51,927 bases of DNA from Halanaerobiales bacterium. Its GTDB lineage: Bacteria; Bacillota; Halanaerobiia; Halanaerobiales; M55B127. This document shows positions 7,409-51,927 of the stretch, one piece after another (the stretch's first letter is position 1; every line of letters starts with the position of its first letter). The notes under the pieces were generated by a model. The model searched no databases, was not told the DNA's origin, and saw only the letters and a program-made list of their open reading frames with translations. The position numbers were made by a program, and so were the translations under genes. The stretch spans positions 1 through 51,927 of the forward strand of contig JAGYMU010000006.1 in NCBI GenBank assembly GCA_018399995.1. Direction: 5' to 3'.

Positions 7409-7451
7409 TCATAGTTAAAAAAAATTTTCACTATATTTGAGGGATTAAATG

Positions 7452-7474
7452 AAAAAAAGCAGGTAGCTACCTGC
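7452..7474 (-). terminator. Rho-independent terminator after trxA
   Basis: The perfect palindrome GCAGGTAGCTACCTGC (7459-7474) is followed on the minus strand by seven T. It lies 22 bases after the trxA stop. Confidence 0.85.
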
Positions 7475-7495
7475 TTTATTCATCTGACTATTCTC

Positions 7496-7822
7496 TTATT
7501 TTAAGCCTAATTTAGCAACCAACTTGTTTTTAGGAGCATAGCCAACAATTCTATCTTTTTCACGACCATCTTCGAAGATTAATAAAGTCGGTATACTCAT
7601 CACATTATATCTAGAAGCAGTAGATTGATTTTTATCCACATCAAGTTTAGTTACTTTGATATCATCTGAATATTCCCTGGCGATTTTTTCTACCACAGGG
7701 GCTACCATCTTACAAGGTGCACACCAGTCAGCCCAGAAATCCACCAATACTGGTACATCTGATTTTAATACCTCTCTTCTGAAATTGCCGTCATTTACTT
7801 CGATTGGTTTTTTACTCATCAT
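7496..7822 (-). CDS. trxA: Thioredoxin
   Basis: This is a single-domain thioredoxin of standard length (108 residues) with the redox motif WADWCAPCKM, the cis-proline segment SIPTLLIF, and the usual VDKNQ stretch. It acts as a cytoplasmic dithiol donor. It follows the two-domain disulfide oxidoreductase gene by 27 bases in an apparent operon. Two adjacent ATG codons follow AAAGGAGG; the second (7819) has better spacing (7 bases rather than 4), so the protein may begin MSKKPIEV. The motif WCAPC differs from the classical WCGPC, but that substitution is seen in other thioredoxins. Confidence 0.93.
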   Translation of the reverse strand: MMSKKPIEVNDGNFRREVLKSDVPVLVDFWADWCAPCKMVAPVVEKIAREYSDDIKVTKLDVDKNQSTASRYNVMSIPTLLIFEDGREKDRIVGYAPKNKLVAKLGLK

Positions 7823-41187: not shown

Positions 41188-42054
41188 TTAGTCGTAGAGA
41201 TAATTAATAAGATTAGCATCTTGATCAATTAAAGGTTTTAATAATTTATCTTTGGCAGTCATTACAGTAGTTACCCCAGGACCATGCCCCATTTTTATGC
41301 AATCACTATGGACTACTACTCCGATACTACCTGCATCCTTTTTAAACTCCCTGCCATATGTATTATCACAATCTTTAAGGTAAACAAAATCACCCAATTT
41401 TAATTTGTCTATCTTTAGTCTTTCAATTTCTTCTTGATCACCGGTTGTTATATCATAATCACCCAATGCCACACTTGAAGCACCAATACCTGAACCCATT
41501 AAATGGGCGGGAATAACAGTACTGACACCTACTTTCAGATAGCCGTCTTTTTGATTGATATTCATCTTATCCAGTAAGTTTGGATCCAGATTAAAGACTT
41601 TAATATCCGGATAATCCAGTAATTTAATACCCTGACCAAATGCTTTGATCAAAATGTCATCACCTATTTTTAACTTTTCTAATACATCAGCTTCAAAGTC
41701 CACAATCACATGTTCTATTCCACCATGGGTACCTGTAACATAACCATATGAGCCCTGCCCATCACCACTTATTATCTTCGCCTTATTTCCTATACATGCC
41801 AATAAGCCCAATCCATAGTTGTCACTTGATTTGTTCTTGTCACTTATCTTCATACTAACTCCCGGTTCAATATGATCCCCGGCCCAACCAAAAGCAGGAT
41901 CCCCTATTTTAACATTATAAGAAATACCGCCTGTGCCCGGTACTATCTGTCCTACACCCTCTCTATCCATTCTATAGGGAGTCCGGGCTGACATCGGATG
42001 AGATATAGAACCCTGGACGGCCTGCATAACAAGTTTCTCCTTATTTATTTCCAA
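41188..42054 (-). CDS. DUF4438 family protein, last gene of the lysine locus
   Basis: This 288-residue protein matches my recollection of the DUF4438 family: HPMSARTPYRMDREGVGQIVPGTGGISYNVKIGDPAFGWAGDHIEPG at the N-terminus, GSYGYVTGTHGGIEHVIVDF in the middle and GSIGVVVHSDCIKMGHGPGVTTVM near the end. Conserved His, Asp and Gly clusters hint at a metal-binding or enzyme site. The function is unknown. The start is TTG at 42054, 6 bases after GGAGGGG. It follows the methionine sulfoxide reductase by 39 bases and lies in line with the catabolic genes, with no terminator seen before the rubrerythrin promoter. Confidence 0.8.
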   Translation of the reverse strand: MEINKEKLVMQAVQGSISHPMSARTPYRMDREGVGQIVPGTGGISYNVKIGDPAFGWAGDHIEPGVSMKISDKNKSSDNYGLGLLACIGNKAKIISGDGQGSYGYVTGTHGGIEHVIVDFEADVLEKLKIGDDILIKAFGQGIKLLDYPDIKVFNLDPNLLDKMNINQKDGYLKVGVSTVIPAHLMGSGIGASSVALGDYDITTGDQEEIERLKIDKLKLGDFVYLKDCDNTYGREFKKDAGSIGVVVHSDCIKMGHGPGVTTVMTAKDKLLKPLIDQDANLINYLYD

Positions 42055-42093
42055 GCTATTCCCCTCCTTATTGATTTAAATAATCTAAAAATA

Positions 42094-42564
42094 TTAAATA
42101 TTAGAAGCCTTAATTAAATAACGAGCCATCTTCTCTAAATAAATTCTATCAACTTCATTAAAATTATTCTGTAAAGGACTATCGATATCTAAAACTCCGA
42201 TAATCTCTCCATTTTTGATCAAAGGAATTACTATTTCTGATTTAGAAGCAGTATCACATGCTATGTGTCCATTAAATTGATCCACATTATCAACAATGAT
42301 AGTCTTTTTCTCTTTAACTGCAGTACCACATACTCCAGAACCAACTTCAATTCTTATACAAGCTGGTTTGCCCTGAAAAGGACCTAAAACCAACTCACCT
42401 TCTTTTAATAAATAAAAGCCAACCCAGTTTACATTTTCTAGATGTAAATATAATAAAGCAGATGTATTGGCCAGATTGGCAATCCAATCTTGTTCTCCTT
42501 CCAATAGTGCCTTTACACTATCATACATCAACAGGTAATCCTCATTTTTCTTATCCAAACCCAT
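42094..42564 (-). CDS. msrC: GAF-domain free methionine-(R)-sulfoxide reductase
   Basis: This single GAF-domain protein of the fRMsr family reduces free methionine-R-sulfoxide. The three family Cys are present, in KPACIRI, GSGVCGTAV and HIACDTASKSEIVIPL, followed by GVLDIDSP. I chose the ATG at 42564 (MGLDKK), 8 bases after AGGAG; a GTG three codons earlier overlaps that site. It starts 15 bases after kdd. No other methionine gene is in the window. A sensor role for the GAF domain is possible, but the intact Cys set favours the reductase. Confidence 0.88.
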   Translation of the reverse strand: MGLDKKNEDYLLMYDSVKALLEGEQDWIANLANTSALLYLHLENVNWVGFYLLKEGELVLGPFQGKPACIRIEVGSGVCGTAVKEKKTIIVDNVDQFNGHIACDTASKSEIVIPLIKNGEIIGVLDIDSPLQNNFNEVDRIYLEKMARYLIKASNI

Positions 42565-42579
42565 GCACAACACTCCTAA

Positions 42580-43614
42580 TTAAGTATATAATCTTGTAAA
42601 AATCTCTTGCAGCTTTTTATTTTCTCTCAATATCTCCAGTGAAATCTGGGCATGGCCCTCTGTAAAACCATTGCCTATAATCATATTTACGTCTTTACCC
42701 ACACCTTCTGCTCCCAGAGCGGCCTTCGTAAAACTTGTTGCCATTGAAAAAAAGTAGATAGTCCCTTTATCTTTTGTACATAAGACAGATGCCATCTCGG
42801 TATCTGTAATGTTTACATTGTTGATAACTATATCGGCAAGTTCTCCCCCGGTTTGAGCCTTGAGAAGTTTTAAACTTTCTACAGGTTGAGTCGCATCACC
42901 CTGAATAATAATATCTGCTGCACCCAATTTTTTTATCCTCTTACAACTGCTATCACTGTGTCCCATTCCTATTACAGTACCTGTAACGCCAGCCCTTTTT
43001 TTAGCTTCATGTAAGCATAATAATCCGGATTTCCCACCTGCTCCTATAATTAAAACATTATCACCAGGCTTTACTAATTTTGCTGTTTGAGCTGCTGCCC
43101 CTGCTACATCAAGTACTGCCAGAGAAAGAGTATCTTCTATATCGGCAGGCAGTTTTGCATATATACCGCTTTCAAACAAAATAGCCTGTGCTTTTACTTC
43201 AACCTGATCAATCTCCTTATGTACCTTTTTAATTTTCTCAATTTTAAGGGGTGTTAAAGACAATGAAACTAAAGTTGCTATCCTATCACCGACTTTTAGA
43301 TCCCTGTCCAAAAGCCTATCTCCTATCTCTTTAACAGTTCCAATTAACATACCACCAGAACCTGTAACTGGATTATGGTGCTTACCTCTTTTATTCACTA
43401 TCTCCATCATTTTTTCCTTTATTTTTTCCTCATTATCTCCAACTTCTGCTTTAATTTGGGTAAAACTGGCAGAATCGATATTTAAAATCTGTACATCTAT
43501 TAAAATCTCATTATCATATAATTCCATCGTATTATCAATTTTTTGGGCCGGTTGTGGTAAAACCCCTTTTGGTTTAATAACTCTATGCAATCCATATTTG
43601 TTACCTTTTTTCAT
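42580..43614 (-). CDS. kdd: L-erythro-3,5-diaminohexanoate dehydrogenase
   Basis: Kdd oxidatively deaminates 3,5-diaminohexanoate to 5-amino-3-oxohexanoate with NAD(P). The 344-residue protein has a GroES-like front (MLIGTVKEIGDRLLDRDLKVGDRIATLVSLSLTPL) and a Rossmann fold with NVLIIGAGGKSGLLCLHEAKK and GMGHSDSSCKRIKKLGAADIII. It differs from ordinary zinc alcohol dehydrogenases in its N-terminus (YGLHRVIKPKGVLPQPAQKI), which is typical of Kdd. GGAGG precedes the ATG. It lies between kce and msrC in the operon. Confidence 0.92.
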   Translation of the reverse strand: MKKGNKYGLHRVIKPKGVLPQPAQKIDNTMELYDNEILIDVQILNIDSASFTQIKAEVGDNEEKIKEKMMEIVNKRGKHHNPVTGSGGMLIGTVKEIGDRLLDRDLKVGDRIATLVSLSLTPLKIEKIKKVHKEIDQVEVKAQAILFESGIYAKLPADIEDTLSLAVLDVAGAAAQTAKLVKPGDNVLIIGAGGKSGLLCLHEAKKRAGVTGTVIGMGHSDSSCKRIKKLGAADIIIQGDATQPVESLKLLKAQTGGELADIVINNVNITDTEMASVLCTKDKGTIYFFSMATSFTKAALGAEGVGKDVNMIIGNGFTEGHAQISLEILRENKKLQEIFTRLYT

Positions 43615-43653: not shown

Positions 43654-44469
43654 TTAGTTAATTTGCAATATCTGGCGGGCTTCCTGGGGAGAAGCAATCT
43701 CTCGTCCGTAATTTTCAGCCAGCCTTACAATCCTTTTTACTAATTGAGCATTACTTTCAGCCAGTTTTCCTTTTTTATAATAGATATTATCTTCAAATCC
43801 CACCCTTACATGTCCTCCCATTGTTATTGTGTGGTAGGCCATTTCAAGCTGATGTCTGCCAATCCCTGCAGAGGTCCAGGTCGCATCTGAAGGTAAATGT
43901 TCAACCATAAATAATAGGTTCTTAATCGAAGCCGGCATAGCACCCGGGATCCCTAAAACTATATCAAAGTGGAGATGTTTATCTAAAAATCCTTCTTTTA
44001 ACAGCTGTAATGCATTATAAATATGGCCAACTTCAAAACACTCTAATTCAGGTAAAATATCAAGTTTTTTCATCTCTTTGGCAAAATTTCTCATTAAAGG
44101 TAGATCATTCACAAAAATATCATCACCGAAATTGGTTGTTCCACAATCCAGAGTAGCCATCTCCGGATTCAAATAAATGGGTTGAATTCTTTCCTGCCAG
44201 GTCATGCCGGCAGCTCCTCCTGTCGAGGGTTGAATTATGGCTTTCACCCCAGATTCTTTAATTTTATCAATTACCTTTTTAAATACTTCTTTTTGCTGGG
44301 TTGGGTTTCCTTCTTCATCCCTAACATGCAAGTGTATAATTGAGGCACCTGCCTGTTCAGCAGATAGAGAGGCCCGGGCAATTTCAGAGGCACTTATGGG
44401 AAGATTAGGATTGTCTTCTTTTGTCACTTCCGCTCCACAAATAGCTGCAGTTATTATTAATTTTTCCAT
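43654..44469 (-). CDS. kce: 3-keto-5-aminohexanoate cleavage enzyme
   Basis: Kce, the founder of the BKACE family, condenses 5-amino-3-oxohexanoate with acetyl-CoA to give acetoacetate and 3-aminobutyryl-CoA. The TIM-barrel protein of 271 residues has the zinc His pair in IIHLHVRDEEG, the distal Glu in PELECFEVGH, and GIPGAMPASI plus TSAGIGRHQLEMAYHTITMGGHVRVGFEDN. Its ATG shares a base with the kal stop (TAATG), so the two are tightly coupled. The specific neighbours kal, kdd and kamDE make the Kce assignment firmer than a generic BKACE call. Confidence 0.94.
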   Translation of the reverse strand: MEKLIITAAICGAEVTKEDNPNLPISASEIARASLSAEQAGASIIHLHVRDEEGNPTQQKEVFKKVIDKIKESGVKAIIQPSTGGAAGMTWQERIQPIYLNPEMATLDCGTTNFGDDIFVNDLPLMRNFAKEMKKLDILPELECFEVGHIYNALQLLKEGFLDKHLHFDIVLGIPGAMPASIKNLLFMVEHLPSDATWTSAGIGRHQLEMAYHTITMGGHVRVGFEDNIYYKKGKLAESNAQLVKRIVRLAENYGREIASPQEARQILQIN

Positions 44470-44861
44470 TATGATTTTCTCTGCCTTTCCCTGGGTACGA
44501 CACAGGTTCCGCTGGCCTTACATACTATTATGGGTTCTTTTAAAACATCACAGGCTGATGCAAATTCTGGATTGTCAGCAGAAGTTATCACTTTGTAAGC
44601 TGTGAATTTCATCTGTCGAGATGTCTTACCCTTTTTTACTATCTCTCCCCTGGCTTCTATAAAATCACCGGCAAAAACAGGGGCTTTAAATTCCACATTA
44701 TCATATGCCAAAAAAAGACCTTCATCACCATCACTTCTAATCAATAATTCTGTTGCAACATCTCCAAATAATTCCAATAACTTTGCTCCATCGACTAACT
44801 CACCCGCATAGTGGGCATCATTTAAACCCATTCTAACTCTAATCATAACTGTGTTATCCAC
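44469..44861 (-). CDS. kal: 3-aminobutyryl-CoA ammonia-lyase
   Basis: This small hotdog-fold enzyme releases ammonia from L-3-aminobutyryl-CoA to give crotonyl-CoA. Characteristic segments are [35 protein letters not shown] and [29 protein letters not shown] chose the GTG at 44861 (MDNTVMIRV), 8 bases after AGGTGG, just after the kamE stop; GTG codons at 44870-44873 and an ATG at 44846 are alternatives. It is coupled to kce. Confidence 0.92.
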
Positions 44862-44862
44862 T

Positions 44863-45618
44863 TTATTCACCACCTTTAACTAATATTGAATCTTTATAGA
44901 CCTTTTGCACAATATATGAAGCAACCTCATTGGGTTTGGTTCCACTACCAAAACCTGCATCAAAACCTAATTCTAAAGCTAGTTCATGACTTATCCTAGG
45001 ACCACCTAATATTAAAATGAACTGATCTCTTAAACCCTCTGCTTCTAATATTTCAACAAATTCTGTCAAATTTTTTATATGTATATTCTTCTGAGTTACA
45101 ACCTGTGAAACTAAAATTGCATCTGCCTTAATCTTTACAGCAGTTTCAATCAGTTTTTCATTTGCAACCTGGCTGCCCATATTTACAGTGTTAATCTCAT
45201 GATATCTCTCTAAACCGTATTCACCATCATATCCCTTCATGTTTAAGATTGCATCAAGTCCCACCGTATGAGCATCTGTACCTGTACAGGCCCCCACAAC
45301 ATTTATCTTCCTATTAATTTTTTCTTTTATATAGTCATTAATTTTATAATAATCCATTATTTCAGTATCGATCTTTGCAACAGTTATCTTATCAAGGTTA
45401 ACAGATTCTTTTGAAACAGCATAAACAACAAAAAAGGTAAAACCTTCTTTGAGATCCTTCATATGAACAACTTCCACATCTTCTAATCCCAACTTAAAAC
45501 AGTATCTCTTACAAGCTTCGGCTGCTTTTAATCCTTGTTTAACCGGGAATGTAAAGCTGAGCTGTATTTTACCATCATTATATGTATCACCATAGGCTCT
45601 TATAATATTATCTTTCAT
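44863..45618 (-). CDS. kamE: Lysine 5,6-aminomutase beta subunit
   Basis: This is the B12-binding subunit of the adenosylcobalamin- and PLP-dependent aminomutase that moves the terminal amino group of beta-lysine (or D-lysine) to C5. The base-off B12 motif DxHxxG appears as DAHTVGLD in [15 protein letters not shown], followed by [25 protein letters not shown], the Rossmann-like cobalamin domain. The ATG at 45618 overlaps the end of kamD by 11 bases; an upstream in-frame extension is a hydrophobic non-homologous stretch. The nearby B12 salvage operon could supply its cofactor. Confidence 0.94.
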
Positions 45619-47179
45619 CTTTAATTTCCAACTCCTTAGAAAATACTTCAGCAAAAGGATTAAAATAATCAATATCTTTCTTTATCACACCATCGGCACC
45701 TTTTCCACCATCGATAGGTCTTTTAATATCTGCAAATATACCTTCAGAAAGGGACTGCATTAGACCTTTTTTAGCTATTACTTTTAATAATTCGGCAGTT
45801 TCTTTTAATACTTGATCAGCTCTTTTTTGAATTTTTCCATTAGAGTTAAAGGTAATTTCACTGCTGATATTACGAGCAGAATTAAACACATGTTTAGCAT
45901 TTTCTATACTTAAGGCCCGATCCTGTATAAAAGGAGTATGAATTGCTTCTGTTAACATACCCAGTAACTGGATCGATTGATCAGTTATAATTGAAGCAAA
46001 GTTGAACATACCATCCATGAGATGGCCCTTAAAAATATCACCATTCATATATTTAGTTGGTGGCATGTACTTTAATGGGGCATCAGGAAAAATCTGTCTT
46101 ACTAACTGAGCTTGAGCAATCTCCAATAAAAAGCTGTCTTTAATTTCTGGATTAATTTCAAATGCATGACCTAAACCCAACTGTTCGTTCTTTAAACCAG
46201 TTCTAAGACCCAACTCCTGATTAATAAACTGAGAAGCTAAAACTGTATGTGACTCTTCTAAAGAATCAGCAGTAGTCAAATAGTTGTCCTCACCAGTATT
46301 AATGATTATCCCTGCATAGGCATTTATCATCCTGGAAAAATGCTGGTCAACAAAGGTTCTTTTCATATTTATATCTCTAAAAAGTATACCATACATCGCA
46401 TCATTTAACATCATATCTAGTCTTTCTTCTGCACCCATCTGCGCTATCTCAGGCATAGCTAAACCCGAACAGTAGTTAACAAGCTGAATATATCGTTTTT
46501 CCTCTTCTATCACTTGATCTAAGGCATCTCTCATTATCTTGAAGTTAGCCTGGGTAGCATATGTTCCACCAAAACCTTCTGTAGTGGGGCCATAAGGTAC
46601 ATAATCTAATAAACTTTGGGCAGTACTTCTAATAACTGCAATAATATCAGCACCTTCTCTGGCTGCAGCCTTTGCCTGTTTTACATCTTCATTTATGTTA
46701 CCTGTGGCAACAATTACATAAAGCCAGGGTTTTAATCCAAGTGGGTATTTAGACTGCATCATTTCTCTTTTTTTGACCTGTTGTTTTATCTGTTCAGATT
46801 TTTTTTCAGAAATTTCTAATATAAATTCTATAATATCTTTGTTTTTTTCTTTGGGGAGTGAAAATAAGTCGATTTTTCCTTCAGATATCTCTTCTGCTAA
46901 TCTTTGTGCCGGTAGACCAGTTTGAATTAATCCATTTCCAAACCAATACGAAATACCTTTATTTAATTTCTGTTCATTTCGGACTTTATCTACTATTACA
47001 TTTGGTAGGGGAATTCCATGTTCATCAACTCCATCAACACCCAAAAATCTCAAAACTGTTCTTTCTACTGAAGTAGTTGTGTTATTGACTATCTTTTTTT
47101 CTACCTTATCAGCAATACTTTTAGTATAATTTCTGCAAAGTGAGATTAGTTTTTGATCTAAATCTAATTTATTGTTCAA
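45608..47179 (-). CDS. kamD: Lysine 5,6-aminomutase alpha subunit
   Basis: This is the catalytic TIM-barrel partner of KamE, 523 residues, of typical length. Recognisable segments are NTTTSVERTVLRFLGVDGVDEHGIPLPN, ISYWFGNGLIQTGLPAQRLAEEI, AVIRSTAQSLLDYVPYGPTTEGFGGTYATQ and the long C-terminal part PPTKYMNGDIFKGHLMDGMFN. The start is TTG at 47179, 7 bases after AAAGGAGG. It lies 21 bases after kamB. Substrate choice between L-beta-lysine and D-lysine cannot be read, but the downstream genes fit the beta-lysine route. Confidence 0.95.
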   Translation of the reverse strand: MNNKLDLDQKLISLCRNYTKSIADKVEKKIVNNTTTSVERTVLRFLGVDGVDEHGIPLPNVIVDKVRNEQKLNKGISYWFGNGLIQTGLPAQRLAEEISEGKIDLFSLPKEKNKDIIEFILEISEKKSEQIKQQVKKREMMQSKYPLGLKPWLYVIVATGNINEDVKQAKAAAREGADIIAVIRSTAQSLLDYVPYGPTTEGFGGTYATQANFKIMRDALDQVIEEEKRYIQLVNYCSGLAMPEIAQMGAEERLDMMLNDAMYGILFRDINMKRTFVDQHFSRMINAYAGIIINTGEDNYLTTADSLEESHTVLASQFINQELGLRTGLKNEQLGLGHAFEINPEIKDSFLLEIAQAQLVRQIFPDAPLKYMPPTKYMNGDIFKGHLMDGMFNFASIITDQSIQLLGMLTEAIHTPFIQDRALSIENAKHVFNSARNISSEITFNSNGKIQKRADQVLKETAELLKVIAKKGLMQSLSEGIFADIKRPIDGGKGADGVIKKDIDYFNPFAEVFSKELEIKDER

Positions 47180-47200
47180 AATATTCCTCCTTTCGATATT

Positions 47201-48232
47201 TTAACTTTTGACATTAAATACTTCAATATCGAACTCTTCTTTTATTTTTTTATAAAAATCAGATGCTATAAAATCTTTCCCATAAGGATTAAAGGGATTA
47301 ATTGTAATCGCTATTAGATTTATTTTAAAAAGTACTTTAAGCTTAATATTTCTCTTTTTTAACCGATTATATACCATTTGATCTAAAAATATTTTAGTCG
47401 AATCAGAAACTAATACAGTTAGTTTTTCAAGACCTAAATCAATTAAAACATTAGCAGTAGTATTGGTAAATGCACCCTGTAGTAGTATATATTTAATATT
47501 AATTTTATTGCTCTTTAATATATCCGTATTGTTTTTTAAAAAAAGATTTGATAGTACTGGTTTATAAGAAAAAATATTGTTATCTTTTGTCCAGATTAAA
47601 TTATTTTTTTTATTATAGTTATCTTTTAAAACGAGTAAATCTTTTTCATTTTTTAAACTATCTGTTAACAGTTTCTTAACCTCATATTTGGTTTTTATAA
47701 TTACCTGATCAATATTTTGACCGATTACTGCTCCCGTTGTTAATATTACAGCATCACTTAATATCGGTAGGGCAGAACTTTTTCTGTCAAGAGCGCCATC
47801 TATTATTAAATAATCTATATGATCAACTAGAATTTCTTTTATTTCTTTCAGCTGGCTGCTTCTGTTTACACCTACAAGTTGAGCTTCTCCTTCTGATAAA
47901 CTTTTATATATCTTTACCCTACCCATTGTAGATTGAATATTTGTTTCTTTTATAAATTTAAACTTTAGTTTTATATTATTTACTGCCTTTTCGGCAGTAA
48001 CAAAATAGGTATTGGGATGGATCTTAACCGGCGGCTTTTTTAGCTTAGTTAACAGATCATATTTTTCTCCATCACGACCATATGACATTATAGCCACCTT
48101 TTTTTGCATTAAAAAAAAGTCCTCAATAACCTTATTTAAGGTTACTGTTTTCCCAGTATTTTTAGCCAACCCAATTATTGATAGGGTTTTAATATTATTT
48201 TTTATAATTAGATCACTTATTTTAGAAGACAT
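47201..48232 (-). CDS. kamB: KamB-like aminomutase reactivase subunit (P-loop protein)
   Basis: This 343-residue P-loop NTPase-like protein has Walker A LAKNTGKTVTLN (about residues 23-34) and ends in ITINPFNPYGKDFIASDFY. Its position directly before kamD fits KamB, which works with the MutS-like ATPase KamC to reactivate lysine 5,6-aminomutase. The assignment rests on context, the P-loop and length. No kamC is present in the window, so it may act alone or with a distant partner. It is the first gene behind the putative sigma-54 promoter; GAGGGG precedes the ATG. Confidence 0.68.
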   Translation of the reverse strand: MSSKISDLIIKNNIKTLSIIGLAKNTGKTVTLNKVIEDFFLMQKKVAIMSYGRDGEKYDLLTKLKKPPVKIHPNTYFVTAEKAVNNIKLKFKFIKETNIQSTMGRVKIYKSLSEGEAQLVGVNRSSQLKEIKEILVDHIDYLIIDGALDRKSSALPILSDAVILTTGAVIGQNIDQVIIKTKYEVKKLLTDSLKNEKDLLVLKDNYNKKNNLIWTKDNNIFSYKPVLSNLFLKNNTDILKSNKINIKYILLQGAFTNTTANVLIDLGLEKLTVLVSDSTKIFLDQMVYNRLKKRNIKLKVLFKINLIAITINPFNPYGKDFIASDFYKKIKEEFDIEVFNVKS

Positions 48233-48256
48233 CTACTTTCCCCTCTTTATTAAAAT

Positions 48257-48272
48257 TGCAATTTCTGTTCCA
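48257..48272 (-). promoter_or_regulatory. Sigma-54 (-24/-12) promoter for the kam operon
   Basis: The minus-strand sequence TGGAACAGAAATTGCA matches the sigma-54 consensus TGGCAC-N5-TTGCW with one change (C to A). It has the invariant GG and GC at the required 10-base spacing. The predicted start, about 12 bases beyond the GC, leaves a short leader whose first bases are the GAGGGG of kamB. A sigma-54 activator gene lies two genes upstream. Confidence 0.72.
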
Positions 48273-48283
48273 TATTATATTTG

Positions 48284-49207
48284 CTATAAAGATAAAATAA
48301 ACGGAACTAAAATCGGCACCAATATCGATAAAACCATACCACTTATAAATGCCAGGACTGCGATATCTTCACCGGCTGTTTTTTTTATTAAAGGTAGGGT
48401 TACATCCATTGTAGTGGCACCACCAGGACCAATTGAAGGTATCTTTCCAAAATATCTTACAATAAAGGGAAGAGTAATTATTGTTAATAATTCTCTAATT
48501 ACATTAGTTAAAAATGCAATAGAACCCAGTTCAACACTGTGTATATTTGTTATCAAAACTGCAGAAAGACTGTACCATCCAAAACCTGCTCCTACAGCCA
48601 AAGCATCTTTGATTACCATCTTTAAAAAGAAACTAGCAAAAAAACTGCCCAAAAGGGTACCGATTACAATTAATATCGGGATTATTAATATTTTAAAACC
48701 TAATATCTTAAGTCCTCTAAAGGCCTCTTTGTTTAAACCTATATCAACTCCAACCCCAAATAACAATACTGCCAGGGCATATGTAGTAATAATTTCTATT
48801 AGGTTAATCGAATCATTATTCAACACACTAAGACCTAAAATTATTCCTATAATGACTGAAAATATAATAATTATTGTTAGTCTATGATCAGATTCTTCTT
48901 GATCTAACTTTTCAGCATTTTTTAGTTCTAGATAATTTTCTTTTAAGAACATGGAAAATACTTTCAATAAAATTACACTACCTATAATTGAGAATAATGC
49001 TAATATAAAAGATTTGAACCCTATTACCCCAATTTGAGTAATTATATTTCTATCAACACCAATCCTTGCACCCATTGATCCTAATAATATTATTAAACCC
49101 AATTCTGTAATATAACCTGAAAACCTATAAAACAGATCTGGTAACGGTTTGAAATAACCAATTAGAAATCCTGTAAATAAAAATATTAAAATTAATGTTA
49201 TATCCAT
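48284..49207 (-). CDS. lysO: LysO-family (YbjE/DUF340) amino acid transporter
   Basis: This 307-residue membrane protein has about eight or nine helices and the LysO hallmarks: LGLIILLGSMGARIGVD in the first half and LAVGAGFGWYSLSAVLI plus IPSIGPGGATTMDVTLPLI in the second. E. coli LysO exports lysine and thialysine. Here it is the second gene of a catabolic locus, so it might move lysine, beta-lysine or an end-product in either direction. TAGGAGTG precedes the ATG. It begins 17 bases after the activator gene, and the sigma-54 promoter follows its stop. Confidence 0.88.
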   Translation of the reverse strand: MDITLILIFLFTGFLIGYFKPLPDLFYRFSGYITELGLIILLGSMGARIGVDRNIITQIGVIGFKSFILALFSIIGSVILLKVFSMFLKENYLELKNAEKLDQEESDHRLTIIIIFSVIIGIILGLSVLNNDSINLIEIITTYALAVLLFGVGVDIGLNKEAFRGLKILGFKILIIPILIVIGTLLGSFFASFFLKMVIKDALAVGAGFGWYSLSAVLITNIHSVELGSIAFLTNVIRELLTIITLPFIVRYFGKIPSIGPGGATTMDVTLPLIKKTAGEDIAVLAFISGMVLSILVPILVPFILSL

Positions 49208-49224
49208 ATTTTCACTCCTATAGT

Positions 49225-50694
49225 TTATGATTTTATGTCATATTTTTTTAGTTTATACTGTAATGACTGTCTTGAAATATCTAGTTTTCTAGCTGCAGCA
49301 CTAATATTAAAACCCGTTTTATTTAAAGCTTTTTTAATAAGTTTTAACTCAATATCTTCTAAAAAAATATCTAAAGCAGGCAGTTGATCTTGGTCTATAA
49401 TTTGATTTGGGAATCTATTGTCACTCTTGCTTTTTTGATCTTTACTTAATCTTTCATTAATATATCCTGGTAAATCACTTAATACTAAAGTGCTCCCCAA
49501 CTGTTTTACATTATAAGCACTCTCTATAACGTGTTTGAGCTCTCTAATATTACCAGGCCAATTATAGTTTAAAAAAATCTCTTTTAAATCAGATGATATA
49601 CCTATGATCTCCTTATTAAACTCCTTATTATAATGTTGTATAAAGTAATCGGTTAATAAAAGTATATCATCTTTTCTATTTTTTAAAGGGGGTAATTTAA
49701 TATGAACAACATTTAATCTATAATATAAGTCCTCTCTCAAATCATTCAACTCAAAAGCTTTATCAGGATGAACATTCATCGTAGTAATAATTCTAACATC
49801 AACTTCTTTCTCTTTTTGTCCTCCAATTCTTCTAACTCTACCATCTTGTAAAACTCTAAGTAACTTTGCCTGTAAAGCAAGATCCATTGAGTTTATTTCA
49901 TCTAAGAGTATTGTTCCTCCATCAGCCATTTCAAAAAGACCGGGTTTACTCCTTGCACCTGTAAAACTGCCTTTTTCTGTTCCAAAAAGTAATGATTCAA
50001 GAAGATCCTTTGGTAAAGCTGCACAGTTTTGGGCAATAAAATCATTTTTTCTTCTTCTACTAGCATTATGTATACTTTGGGCAAATAGTTCTTTACCTGT
50101 ACCTGTCTCACCATATATTAAAACAGAGGAATCACTTTGAGCTGATTTCATGGCATTACTTACAACTTTATTGAAATTACTGTTTTGTCCAATTATATCA
50201 GAAAATTCATAGTTTGTATTATTATCTCTTTTTATATCATTATCAACTTTAATATCTTTTTTATTGACTTGAAGCTTTTCTCTCAAATCAGTAATATTAT
50301 CAACAAGCTGTTCAGTTTGTGTAATATCTTTTGATATTTCTACAGCTCCCACACTGTTGTCAGAAAATACAATTGCTAAGGTATGGTTTATTGTTGTTAT
50401 CTTTTTCCCCCGATAGTTTATTATCGTCTGTTTATGATTAAAATAGCTTTTTTTATTCTTTAAGGTCTTCATTAAAGTTGAGGTCTCTAAGGTAAGAGAT
50501 GGAAATACTTCAAAAATATTTTTACCCAGTACTTCCTCTGGTTTGAGACCATCAATTTCAGAGGCTTTTTTATTATATAATATTGTGTTTCCTCTCTGGT
50601 CAACTATATGTATTCCTTCATTTAAGTTATTAAAAAGCTTACACAAACTATCTTTATCAATATTCATCTTATCTAAAAACCATTTCTGTTCCAT
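49225..50694 (-). CDS. PAS-AAA-Fis sigma-54-dependent transcriptional activator
   Basis: This 489-residue enhancer-binding protein has an N-terminal PAS sensor (about 20-130; GIHIVDQRGNTILYNKKASEIDG) and a linker. The AAA+ domain (about 168-395) has Walker A GETGTGKELFAQ, the sigma-54 contact loop GSFTGAR in place of GAFTGA, Walker B GGTILLDEI, and the Arg fingers in REDLYYRLNVV. The C-terminal Fis-type helix-turn-helix is ISAAARKLDISRQSLQYKLKKY. It probably senses a ligand through PAS and activates the kam promoter. AGGGGG precedes the ATG. Confidence 0.92.
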   Translation of the reverse strand: MEQKWFLDKMNIDKDSLCKLFNNLNEGIHIVDQRGNTILYNKKASEIDGLKPEEVLGKNIFEVFPSLTLETSTLMKTLKNKKSYFNHKQTIINYRGKKITTINHTLAIVFSDNSVGAVEISKDITQTEQLVDNITDLREKLQVNKKDIKVDNDIKRDNNTNYEFSDIIGQNSNFNKVVSNAMKSAQSDSSVLIYGETGTGKELFAQSIHNASRRRKNDFIAQNCAALPKDLLESLLFGTEKGSFTGARSKPGLFEMADGGTILLDEINSMDLALQAKLLRVLQDGRVRRIGGQKEKEVDVRIITTMNVHPDKAFELNDLREDLYYRLNVVHIKLPPLKNRKDDILLLTDYFIQHYNKEFNKEIIGISSDLKEIFLNYNWPGNIRELKHVIESAYNVKQLGSTLVLSDLPGYINERLSKDQKSKSDNRFPNQIIDQDQLPALDIFLEDIELKLIKKALNKTGFNISAAARKLDISRQSLQYKLKKYDIKS

Positions 50695-50757
50695 AATAAT
50701 CCCCCTATCTTTTCTATATTAATCACTTCTACTAAAGGTAATTTAAGTCCTTTATTT

Positions 50758-50777
50758 TATGCAAATTATTTTGCATA
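50758..50777. promoter_or_regulatory. 20-base palindrome in the activator/amidohydrolase divergent region
   Basis: TATGCAAA-TTAT-TTTGCATA is a perfect inverted repeat with 8-base arms. It overlaps a TAAAAT -10-like box for the activator gene (minus strand, 50754-50759). A second short palindrome, TTGCGCAA, is at 50790-50797. Fis-type regulators bind such dyads, so this may be an operator for autoregulation or for control of the divergent gene. Confidence 0.55.
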
Positions 50778-50848
50778 TTGAAAAATTTCTTGCGCAAAAA
50801 AGGAATAAATTATACTAATCTGGAAAGTATAAAATGAGGGGTGAAAAC

Positions 50849-51927
50849 ATGAACCAAAAAAACTTATTTGTAAATGTTAATATAGCTGATAACAAATTTA
50901 ATAATTCAATACTAGTTGAAGATGGAATTATTAAAGAAATTGGAAAAGGAATTCAATTAAAAGATACCATAAGTGAAGATACAAAAATAATTGATCTAAA
51001 TAACAGATTTTTAATACCTTCTTTTACAGATGCCCACCTACATTATTTTTATTATGCTTTAAAAAAAGAAAGTATCGATCTTAAAGACTGTAACAGCATC
51101 TCAGAAGTATATAATAAGATTAAAAGCAAAACAGATCAATTAGATTCAAAACATTGGGTAACTGTCATAAACTGGGATGAAGAAAAGTATTCCAACAGTG
51201 AACTAATGGATAGGCATTTTTTAGATAAAATATCTAAAAATGTCCCTATCTTAGTAAAAAGAAGATGTTTACACCTGGCTTATGTAAATTCAAAAGCCTT
51301 AAAAATTGCTAAAATAAACAAAAACTCACCTGATCCAGTCGGTGGTAAAATATTAAGAAATAAAGACGGAATACCAACTGGAGTTCTTCAGGATGAATCA
51401 ATAACAAAATTTGATGATATTATACTTAATAATTATAAAGATCGTTTTAAAAATATATTAGAAGATAATTTTAAAGATTTTCTTAAATATGGTATAACTA
51501 CTATTCATACTGATGACTTCTGGCAGAAAAAATACAGAAAGCAGATATTAAAAAGCTATATTGAGCTTGCTAGAGAAGACAAACTACCTCTCGATATTAT
51601 ACTACAGTTAAGAGTAAATAGTATTGATGATTTTAACTTTCACTTAAAAATAAAGGATAAGGTTAAAGGATTAAAAAGATTAAATACAGGCCCTGTTAAG
51701 TTTATGTTAGATGGTTCTTTAGGTGGTAGAACTGCTGCTTTAAGAAAACCCTATACAGATCAGACAGATACAAAAGGAGAGCTGCTTTATAAAAAAGAAA
51801 AGTTAGAAAGTTTAATAAATCAGGCTTACAAACTTAACTTTCAACCAGCAGTACATGCTATCGGTATTAAAGCAGTAGAATTAATAGTTAAAATATATGA
51901 AAAAATAAATAAAAAATATCCAGATAA
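50849..51927 (+). CDS. YtcJ-like metal-dependent amidohydrolase (cut by window edge)
   Basis: The first 359 codons are present; the 3' end lies beyond the window. It resembles amidohydrolase family 3 (YtcJ-like). There is a small N-terminal beta domain (residues 1-55; SILVEDGIIKEIGKG), then the metal motif FTDAHLHYFYYAL (HxH), KFMLDGSLGGRTAALRKPYTD, which matches the family's DGSLG segment, and a later metal His in FQPAVHAIG. Such enzymes hydrolyse amide or cyclic amide bonds of N-acyl compounds. It is divergent from the sigma-54 activator of the lysine locus. GAGGGGTGA precedes the ATG. The substrate is unknown. Confidence 0.85.
   Translation, partial: MNQKNLFVNVNIADNKFNNSILVEDGIIKEIGKGIQLKDTISEDTKIIDLNNRFLIPSFTDAHLHYFYYALKKESIDLKDCNSISEVYNKIKSKTDQLDSKHWVTVINWDEEKYSNSELMDRHFLDKISKNVPILVKRRCLHLAYVNSKALKIAKINKNSPDPVGGKILRNKDGIPTGVLQDESITKFDDIILNNYKDRFKNILEDNFKDFLKYGITTIHTDDFWQKKYRKQILKSYIELAREDKLPLDIILQLRVNSIDDFNFHLKIKDKVKGLKRLNTGPVKFMLDGSLGGRTAALRKPYTDQTDTKGELLYKKEKLESLINQAYKLNFQPAVHAIGIKAVELIVKIYEKINKKYPD

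Follow-up and report, generated by a model that had tools for sequence, protein, structure and literature searches.

The window, by which we mean the whole 51,927-nt stretch of DNA that was analysed, comes from a salt-loving bacterium and carries on its minus strand a lysine fermentation locus in the order activator, lysO, the candidate promoter element TGGAACAGAAATTGCA, kamB, kamD, kamE, kal, kce, kdd, GAF-domain protein and DUF4438 protein. Anaerobes can obtain butyrate and acetate by fermenting lysine via 3,5-diaminohexanoate. The features are as follows, with the evidence for each in brackets.

42580..43614, minus strand: kdd, L-erythro-3,5-diaminohexanoate dehydrogenase (NF052381, 278.9 bits)
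43654..44469, minus strand: kce, 3-keto-5-aminohexanoate cleavage enzyme (NF052387, 434.9 bits)
44469..44873, minus strand: kal, 3-aminobutyryl-CoA ammonia lyase (NF052388, 189.6 bits, cut-off 160)
44863..45672, minus strand: kamE, lysine 5,6-aminomutase beta subunit; true start probably further in (NF052385, 380.4 bits)
45608..47179, minus strand: kamD, lysine 5,6-aminomutase alpha subunit (NF052384, 848.8 bits)
47201..48232, minus strand: kamB, lysine 5,6-aminomutase reactivase subunit, first gene of the operon with the predicted promoter (NF052386, 294.5 bits, cut-off 210)
48246, minus strand: predicted transcription start, +1 (from the -24/-12 spacing)
48257..48272, minus strand: predicted sigma-54 -24/-12 element TGGAACAGAAATTGCA, 5' of kamB (top window score and GG/GC conservation)
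48284..49207, minus strand: lysO, lysine exporter homologue, between activator and promoter (PF03956, 243.7 bits)
49225..50694, minus strand: KamR-like activator with PAS, AAA+ sigma-54 activator (GSFTGA loop) and Fis-type HTH domains (PF00158, PF13426, PF02954; orthologue alignment)
50760..50775, minus strand: predicted operator/enhancer copy TGCAAAATAATTTGCA (position kept in every complete locus; pair unique in genome)
50779..50794, minus strand: predicted operator/enhancer copy CGCAAGAAATTTTTCA, 19 bp from the TGCAAAATAATTTGCA copy (same evidence)
50834..51925, plus strand: divergent amidohydrolase, cut by the window end, with kamA beyond it in relatives (PF07969)

The GAF-domain and DUF4438 protein genes (41188-42573) lie 3' of kdd on the same strand and are perhaps operon members.

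The kamB promoter element and its predicted activator

Within the lysO-kamB gap (48233-48283, 51 nt), 40 nt 5' of the kamB start, the minus strand reads TGGAACAGAAATTGCA (48272-48257), which has GG-N10-GC spacing and is close to the consensus TGGCAYR-N4-TTGCW. We scored both strands of the window with an approximate -24/-12 weight matrix, the weights of which came from general knowledge of the consensus and were untrained. The element was the top sigma-54 match, with 15.5 bits, while the runner-up reached 12.8 bits. In shuffled windows, scores at least as high turn up 0.6 times per window, which corresponds to about 0.0002 for the 51-nt gap (36 positions, one strand). The loose pattern TGG-N9-TTGCA with one mismatch gave chance-level matches only, an uninformative check because the pattern is too weak. 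Transcription starting at 48246 would produce a 14-nt leader containing an AGAGGGG ribosome-binding site. A sigma-A promoter, with TATAAT just 5' of the -24, was weighed and set aside: sigma-70 patterns matched 30 times over 47000-51000 versus 24.9 by chance, and none of the matches listed for this interval falls on the minus strand at the kamB promoter site. A 14-mer, TATGGAACAGAAAT, is common to the promoter (48261-48274) and the activator start codon region (50682-50695), but since it is absent from G001 and G002 it is probably shared by chance, and we attach no meaning to it.

The activator has the defining parts of an enhancer-binding protein, namely an AAA+ sigma-54 interaction domain with a GAFTGA-type loop and a DNA-binding domain, and its GSFTGA loop is an activation-competent variant (PMC6615313). 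The closest named genome, Halanaerobiales bacterium GSL_CB2_7, shows 96% identity over the activator PAS region. The best NCBIfam match is PrdR (NF041552), whose PAS-AAA-HTH layout is alike. We rejected the identification as PrdR because the match scores 396.2 bits versus a curated cut-off of 795, and because the PrdR operator class, TGT-N10-12-ACA (PMC6615313), differs from the TGCAAAAWWTTTTGCA form found here. As in KamR-type systems, the activator stands next to lysine aminomutase genes with a predicted -24/-12 promoter, and Bacilli homologues with the order activator, sigma-54 site, kamA were found (e.g., Peribacillus L198). On layout and gene context, the activator resembles KamR of Bacillus thuringiensis (HD73_2539). 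Its intact GSFTGA loop and PAS domain, and the conserved operator, fit ligand-controlled switching of lysine breakdown. These results bear out the core of the first-pass annotation, which had described an invariant GG-N10-GC with a near-consensus -24/-12 in a 51-base gap, named the genes on either side lysO and kamB (here by PF03956 and by NF052386 above its cut-off), and recognized the first upstream regulator as a PAS-type sigma-54 activator (here by PF00158, PF13426, and PF02954).

No RpoN was found in the source assembly, which is 80% complete, and two weak PF04552 matches (L001 and L002) were rejected as RpoN because they are LacI-type regulators. RpoN is present in 4/4 congeners, and in the closest relative, G003, rpoN lies within rapZ-yvcK-whiA-rpoN-cggR-gapA, genes that we named by inspecting their translations. 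An 8-kb query spanning this block matches the source genome over its first 365 nt only, exactly at the end of contig C160. Since the block from rapZ to gapA, gapA included, falls in an assembly gap, we attribute the absence of rpoN to the contig gap. The source genome has six strong sigma-54 activator domains.

Two observations on rpoN concern other genomes. In genus g8 (G011, G017, G020, G023, G026, and G032-G035), matches to the RpoN core-binding domain are split or partial, and the rpoN ORFs are mostly ~370 aa versus ~448 aa, which suggests a shortened RpoN. In L080-L083 (G042, G047, G040, and G049), a second KamB-like gene is found some 4-7 kb away from rpoN, and three of these four also have an adjoining weakly KamE-like (B12-mutase-like) gene there, which hints at another sigma-54-linked aminomutase locus.

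Conservation of the promoter element

We located the activator, lysO, and kamB in relatives and scanned the intervals between them. GG/GC at fixed spacing occurs in 15/15 kamB-side sites of orthologous Halanaerobiales loci, with an invariant -12 TTGCA in the same 15, and is kept in all orthologous loci whose activator is intact. The sites that we found on the kamA side (described below) retain GG/GC in 14/14 cases. Conservation of these positions in related loci was the check that the first-pass annotation had named for its promoter, and the outcome favors it. Members of the genus carry the site in the gap between lysO and kamB, 39-40 nt ahead of the kamB start, with invariant T-GG and TTGCA positions and variable flanks. 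It is likewise within this gap in L055, L061, and L066, and between activator and kamB in L058, which is without lysO. In the f5 family, the site is between activator and lysO, so the transporter gene is inside the predicted sigma-54 operon there. The candidate kamB-side promoter is thus before or after lysO, depending on the family. LysO (48284-49207), a lysine exporter homologue, is itself retained among the genes for lysine degradation and, depending on the family, belongs to the predicted sigma-54 operon or stands apart from it. The earlier suggestion that activator and transporter are transcribed separately would fit the genus, where the promoter is 3' of lysO, although the gap holds no terminator, and does not carry over to the f5 family.

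Overall, the -24/-12 element is conserved across at least five families. A second set, largely independent although its first dozen loci are again Halanaerobiales, came from named genomes: 80 loci were fetched with the activator PAS domain, 63 of them with lysine genes. These span Bacillota, with Tissierella, Alkaliphilus, Lutispora, Geosporobacter, Paenibacillus, and others, and 51/63 have a site of at least 13 bits 5' of a lysine gene.

Presence of the site also goes with the state of the activator loop. Where the loop is intact, a site was found in 55/57 complete lysine-linked loci (counting as intact L187, which reads GAFTGS; 54/56 before L187), and where the loop is lost, in 0/3; since the loci are phylogenetically non-independent, we take this association as support, not proof. 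In L077 (the same locus as L141), the GAFTGA segment is lost from the activator orthologue, in which ERVD stands at the DExx motif; the locus has no -24/-12 site and retains the operator pair. In L172 and L173, ASFPSA replaces the GAFTGA loop, and there is no -24/-12 site. Two side observations concern these proteins. The L077/L141 activator (G045, 5223-6677 of L077) was probably converted to a sigma-54-independent regulator, and the L172/L173 homologues, which adjoin kdd-kamA-kamB, possibly represent an independent loss of sigma-54 control. Taken on its own, the reading of TGGAACAGAAATTGCA as the predicted -24/-12 promoter of the lysine-fermentation operon is one in which we place high confidence.

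A probable remote operator pair between two candidate targets

A pair of inverted repeats, each 16 bp long and of the type TGCAAAAWWTTTTGCA, lies just 5' of the activator gene, and we regard it as the probable operator. Such a pair is found 5' of the activator in every complete Halanaerobiales locus; its copies are 19-22 bp apart (23 bp in L077), and about 60-130 nt separate the first of them from the activator start codon. L061 and L066 carry it although they are without the divergent amidohydrolase, and L062 has one strong copy only. Because we originally recognized the motif by eye in these stretches of DNA, scores on the same loci are partly circular, and we therefore searched 61 whole genomes with a fixed pattern for the pair. 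It matched in 19/61 genomes, compared with 1/61 for a reversed control pattern. The pair occurs once per genome in the genus and is the sole such pair in the source genome. In genomes that had not been used for motif finding, matches adjoin an activator orthologue (L087, L088, L090, L098, and L102); one match, in G049 (L086), is without a neighboring activator, and there is one extra match in G014.

Outside the order, the arrangement changes. L088 and L087, which belong to the same class, have the pair after the activator, then a sigma-54 site about 75-260 nt further on, and then kamA. The palindrome that corresponds to it in Clostridia and some Bacilli is TGCCGAAWWTTCGGCA; a copy immediately 3' of the activator stop mostly precedes the sigma-54 site of kamA or kdd by 70-190 nt, and one or two further copies are found just 5' of the activator start. 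The 70-190 nt distance to these predicted sites is the normal enhancer position. As a separate observation, in L209 (Firmicutes UBA4916, 7413-7548) an activator homologue precedes a TGCAAA-type operator pair and a sigma-54 site; a distant KamD relative (28%) is nearby, and this is possibly an ornithine aminomutase locus.

The second candidate target is kamA (lysine 2,3-aminomutase), which in contiguous relatives lies beyond the divergent amidohydrolase; like the remote pair, it is an addition to the first-pass annotation. A separate sigma-54 site precedes kamA by about 60-120 nt in Halanaerobiales loci. In the source genome, kamA is on contig C222 (L121), where its sigma-54 site reads TGGTACGAATTTTGCA (17.7 bits) and no operator was found near that site. 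An operator close to the kamA site is present, and strong (18-22 bits), in L055, L058, and L066, and none was found close to it in the genus or the f5 family. The distance from the pair to the kamA site, in the direction opposite to kamB, is about 2.84-2.85 kb as measured in G003, a 95%-identical relative. A PLP-dependent amino-acid racemase-like gene (L121 2660-3770, contig C222) is divergent from kamA; it is retained beside kamA or the activator in most Halanaerobiales loci and could link L- and D-lysine routes.

On the kamB side, the pair centre is 2505 bp from the site in the window and 1568-2562 bp across 13 loci. The nearest credible operator is thus well outside the usual range, since most operators of Clostridiales sigma-54 activators are 100-250 bp from the promoter (PMC6615313). 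Exceptions exist at sox and rocG (PMC4941409), so that the 2505 bp does not exclude the activator from the enhancer-binding proteins. Since the only activator sites found lie 2.5 kb away, we reasoned that the switch probably works by DNA looping.

The model that we consider likely as a whole is the following. Sigma-54 RNA polymerase would read TGGAACAGAAATTGCA as the promoter of a kamBDE-kal-kce-kdd operon. The KamR-like PAS activator, encoded two genes upstream, would bind the pair 5' of its own gene as multimers and would sense a signal through its PAS domain, probably lysine or a pathway intermediate. The kamB promoter would then be opened by bound activator through a DNA loop of ~2.5 kb that spans the activator gene and lysO, and in the other direction the same pair would serve the sigma-54 promoter before kamA, at ~2.85 kb. 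The pair probably also autoregulates the activator gene. We lean, with less assurance, towards a more specific form of this model, in which the genome has no enhancer other than the single pair, this pair serves two sigma-54 promoters that read outward from it (1.6-2.6 kb on the kamB side, about 3 kb on the kamA side), at least two families have no proximal enhancer at either target, and the kamB-side promoter moved across lysO in evolution.

The operator keeps a constant distance to the activator start codon, not to the promoter, which would also fit pure autoregulation. The sigma-54 promoter would then be genuine and the remote pair would only autoregulate the activator, while kamB would be activated via a weak proximal site in lysO or by activator from solution. 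The outgroups lend this some weight, since a pair at the activator start coexists there with a separate promoter-proximal copy and may therefore have its own role. There are also weak operator-like matches near kamB: TGTAAGATATTTTGGA (10.5 bits), which the window and G003 have within lysO, 189 nt 5' of the site, one in L055 (9.1 bits), and one in L066 (9.5 bits, at 269 nt). However, we found no credible operator copy near the kamB promoter, the best match within 500 nt 5' of the site being background-like in the other 9/13 loci. TGTAAGATATTTTGGA is without the GC contacts of both half-sites, falls on Y-F-G codons, and has no counterpart in G001 or G002; we rejected it as a kamB-proximal operator because it is coding-constrained and not conserved across the genus. 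The proximal copies at kamA, in contrast, have the high scores given above. We judge activation of kamB from a proximal site or from solution to be unlikely.

It is far less probable that the kam transcript comes mainly by read-through from a sigma-A promoter before the activator and lysO, with the sigma-54 site adding little. Activator, lysO, and kamB are collinear, with gaps of 17 and 51 nt, and since no terminator was found in the lysO-kamB gap of the window, read-through from the activator and lysO is possible. Nevertheless, the site is far better conserved than its surroundings, a terminator-like hairpin (-13.3 kcal/mol) stands immediately 5' of it in L066 and a weaker one in L058, and the promoter is retained in L058 despite the absence of lysO. 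Finally, a chance match of TGGAACAGAAATTGCA to the -24/-12 consensus can be dismissed almost entirely: loose patterns are abundant in this AT-rich window, but such a score is hardly expected in the gap, the element is conserved over at least five families, and it is gone where the activator loop is lost.

Relation to known regulators and significance

Control of kamA by KamR and sigma-54 is established in B. thuringiensis HD73 (PMC4428206, which reports Zhang et al. 2014). As described there, a PAS-type enhancer-binding activator adjoins its target in the same direction, and a -24/-12 promoter (TTGGCATAACTATTGCT in B. thuringiensis) precedes a lysine aminomutase gene, both of which are also seen here; in B. 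thuringiensis, there is Sigma-K control as well. Unlike in the KamR system, the predicted target here includes the whole kamBDE-kal-kce-kdd 5,6-aminomutase operon, with lysO in between, and no promoter-proximal operator was found at kamB. Relative to known KamR control, the arrangement is thus extended to a whole fermentation operon, and we infer a remote-only enhancer in this order.

Precedents for a shared remote enhancer come from other pathways. At the B. thuringiensis sox locus, as here by prediction from sequence, the operator is 5' of the activator gene (PMC4941409). There, soxB, soxC, and soxR itself are reported to share a single operator next to soxR, which acts on a divergent sigma-54 promoter, on another sigma-54 promoter (that of soxC) past the activator gene at a distance of at least 1.7 kb, and, by autoregulation, on the activator gene (PMC4941409). 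The pathway and the operator differ, and the divergent sox target adjoins the operator, whereas here both candidate targets are remote (2.5 and about 2.85 kb). For RocR of Bacillus subtilis, PMC4941409 describes an enhancer between rocG and rocABC that serves two promoters, acting on rocG from 1.5 kb. A single sigma-54 enhancer for two promoters would be common to both systems, but the RocR enhancer is 3' of rocG, while the pair here is 5' of the activator gene, between two outward-reading units. Among the 39 sigma-54 activator groups reconstructed in Clostridiales, there is no lysine regulon (PMC6615313), and a 2025 survey found lysine 2,3-aminomutase enriched in Bacilli sigma-54 regulons (PMC12316311). 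We found no published description of an activator of a 5,6-aminomutase operon.

Taken together, these findings outline a concrete regulon, with predicted activator, operator, promoters, and targets, that is recognizable across Bacillota. They also provide a natural, conserved set of candidate long-range bacterial enhancers, with distances and promoter positions that differ from family to family; such a set would be useful for testing the reach of bacterial DNA looping in native chromosomes.
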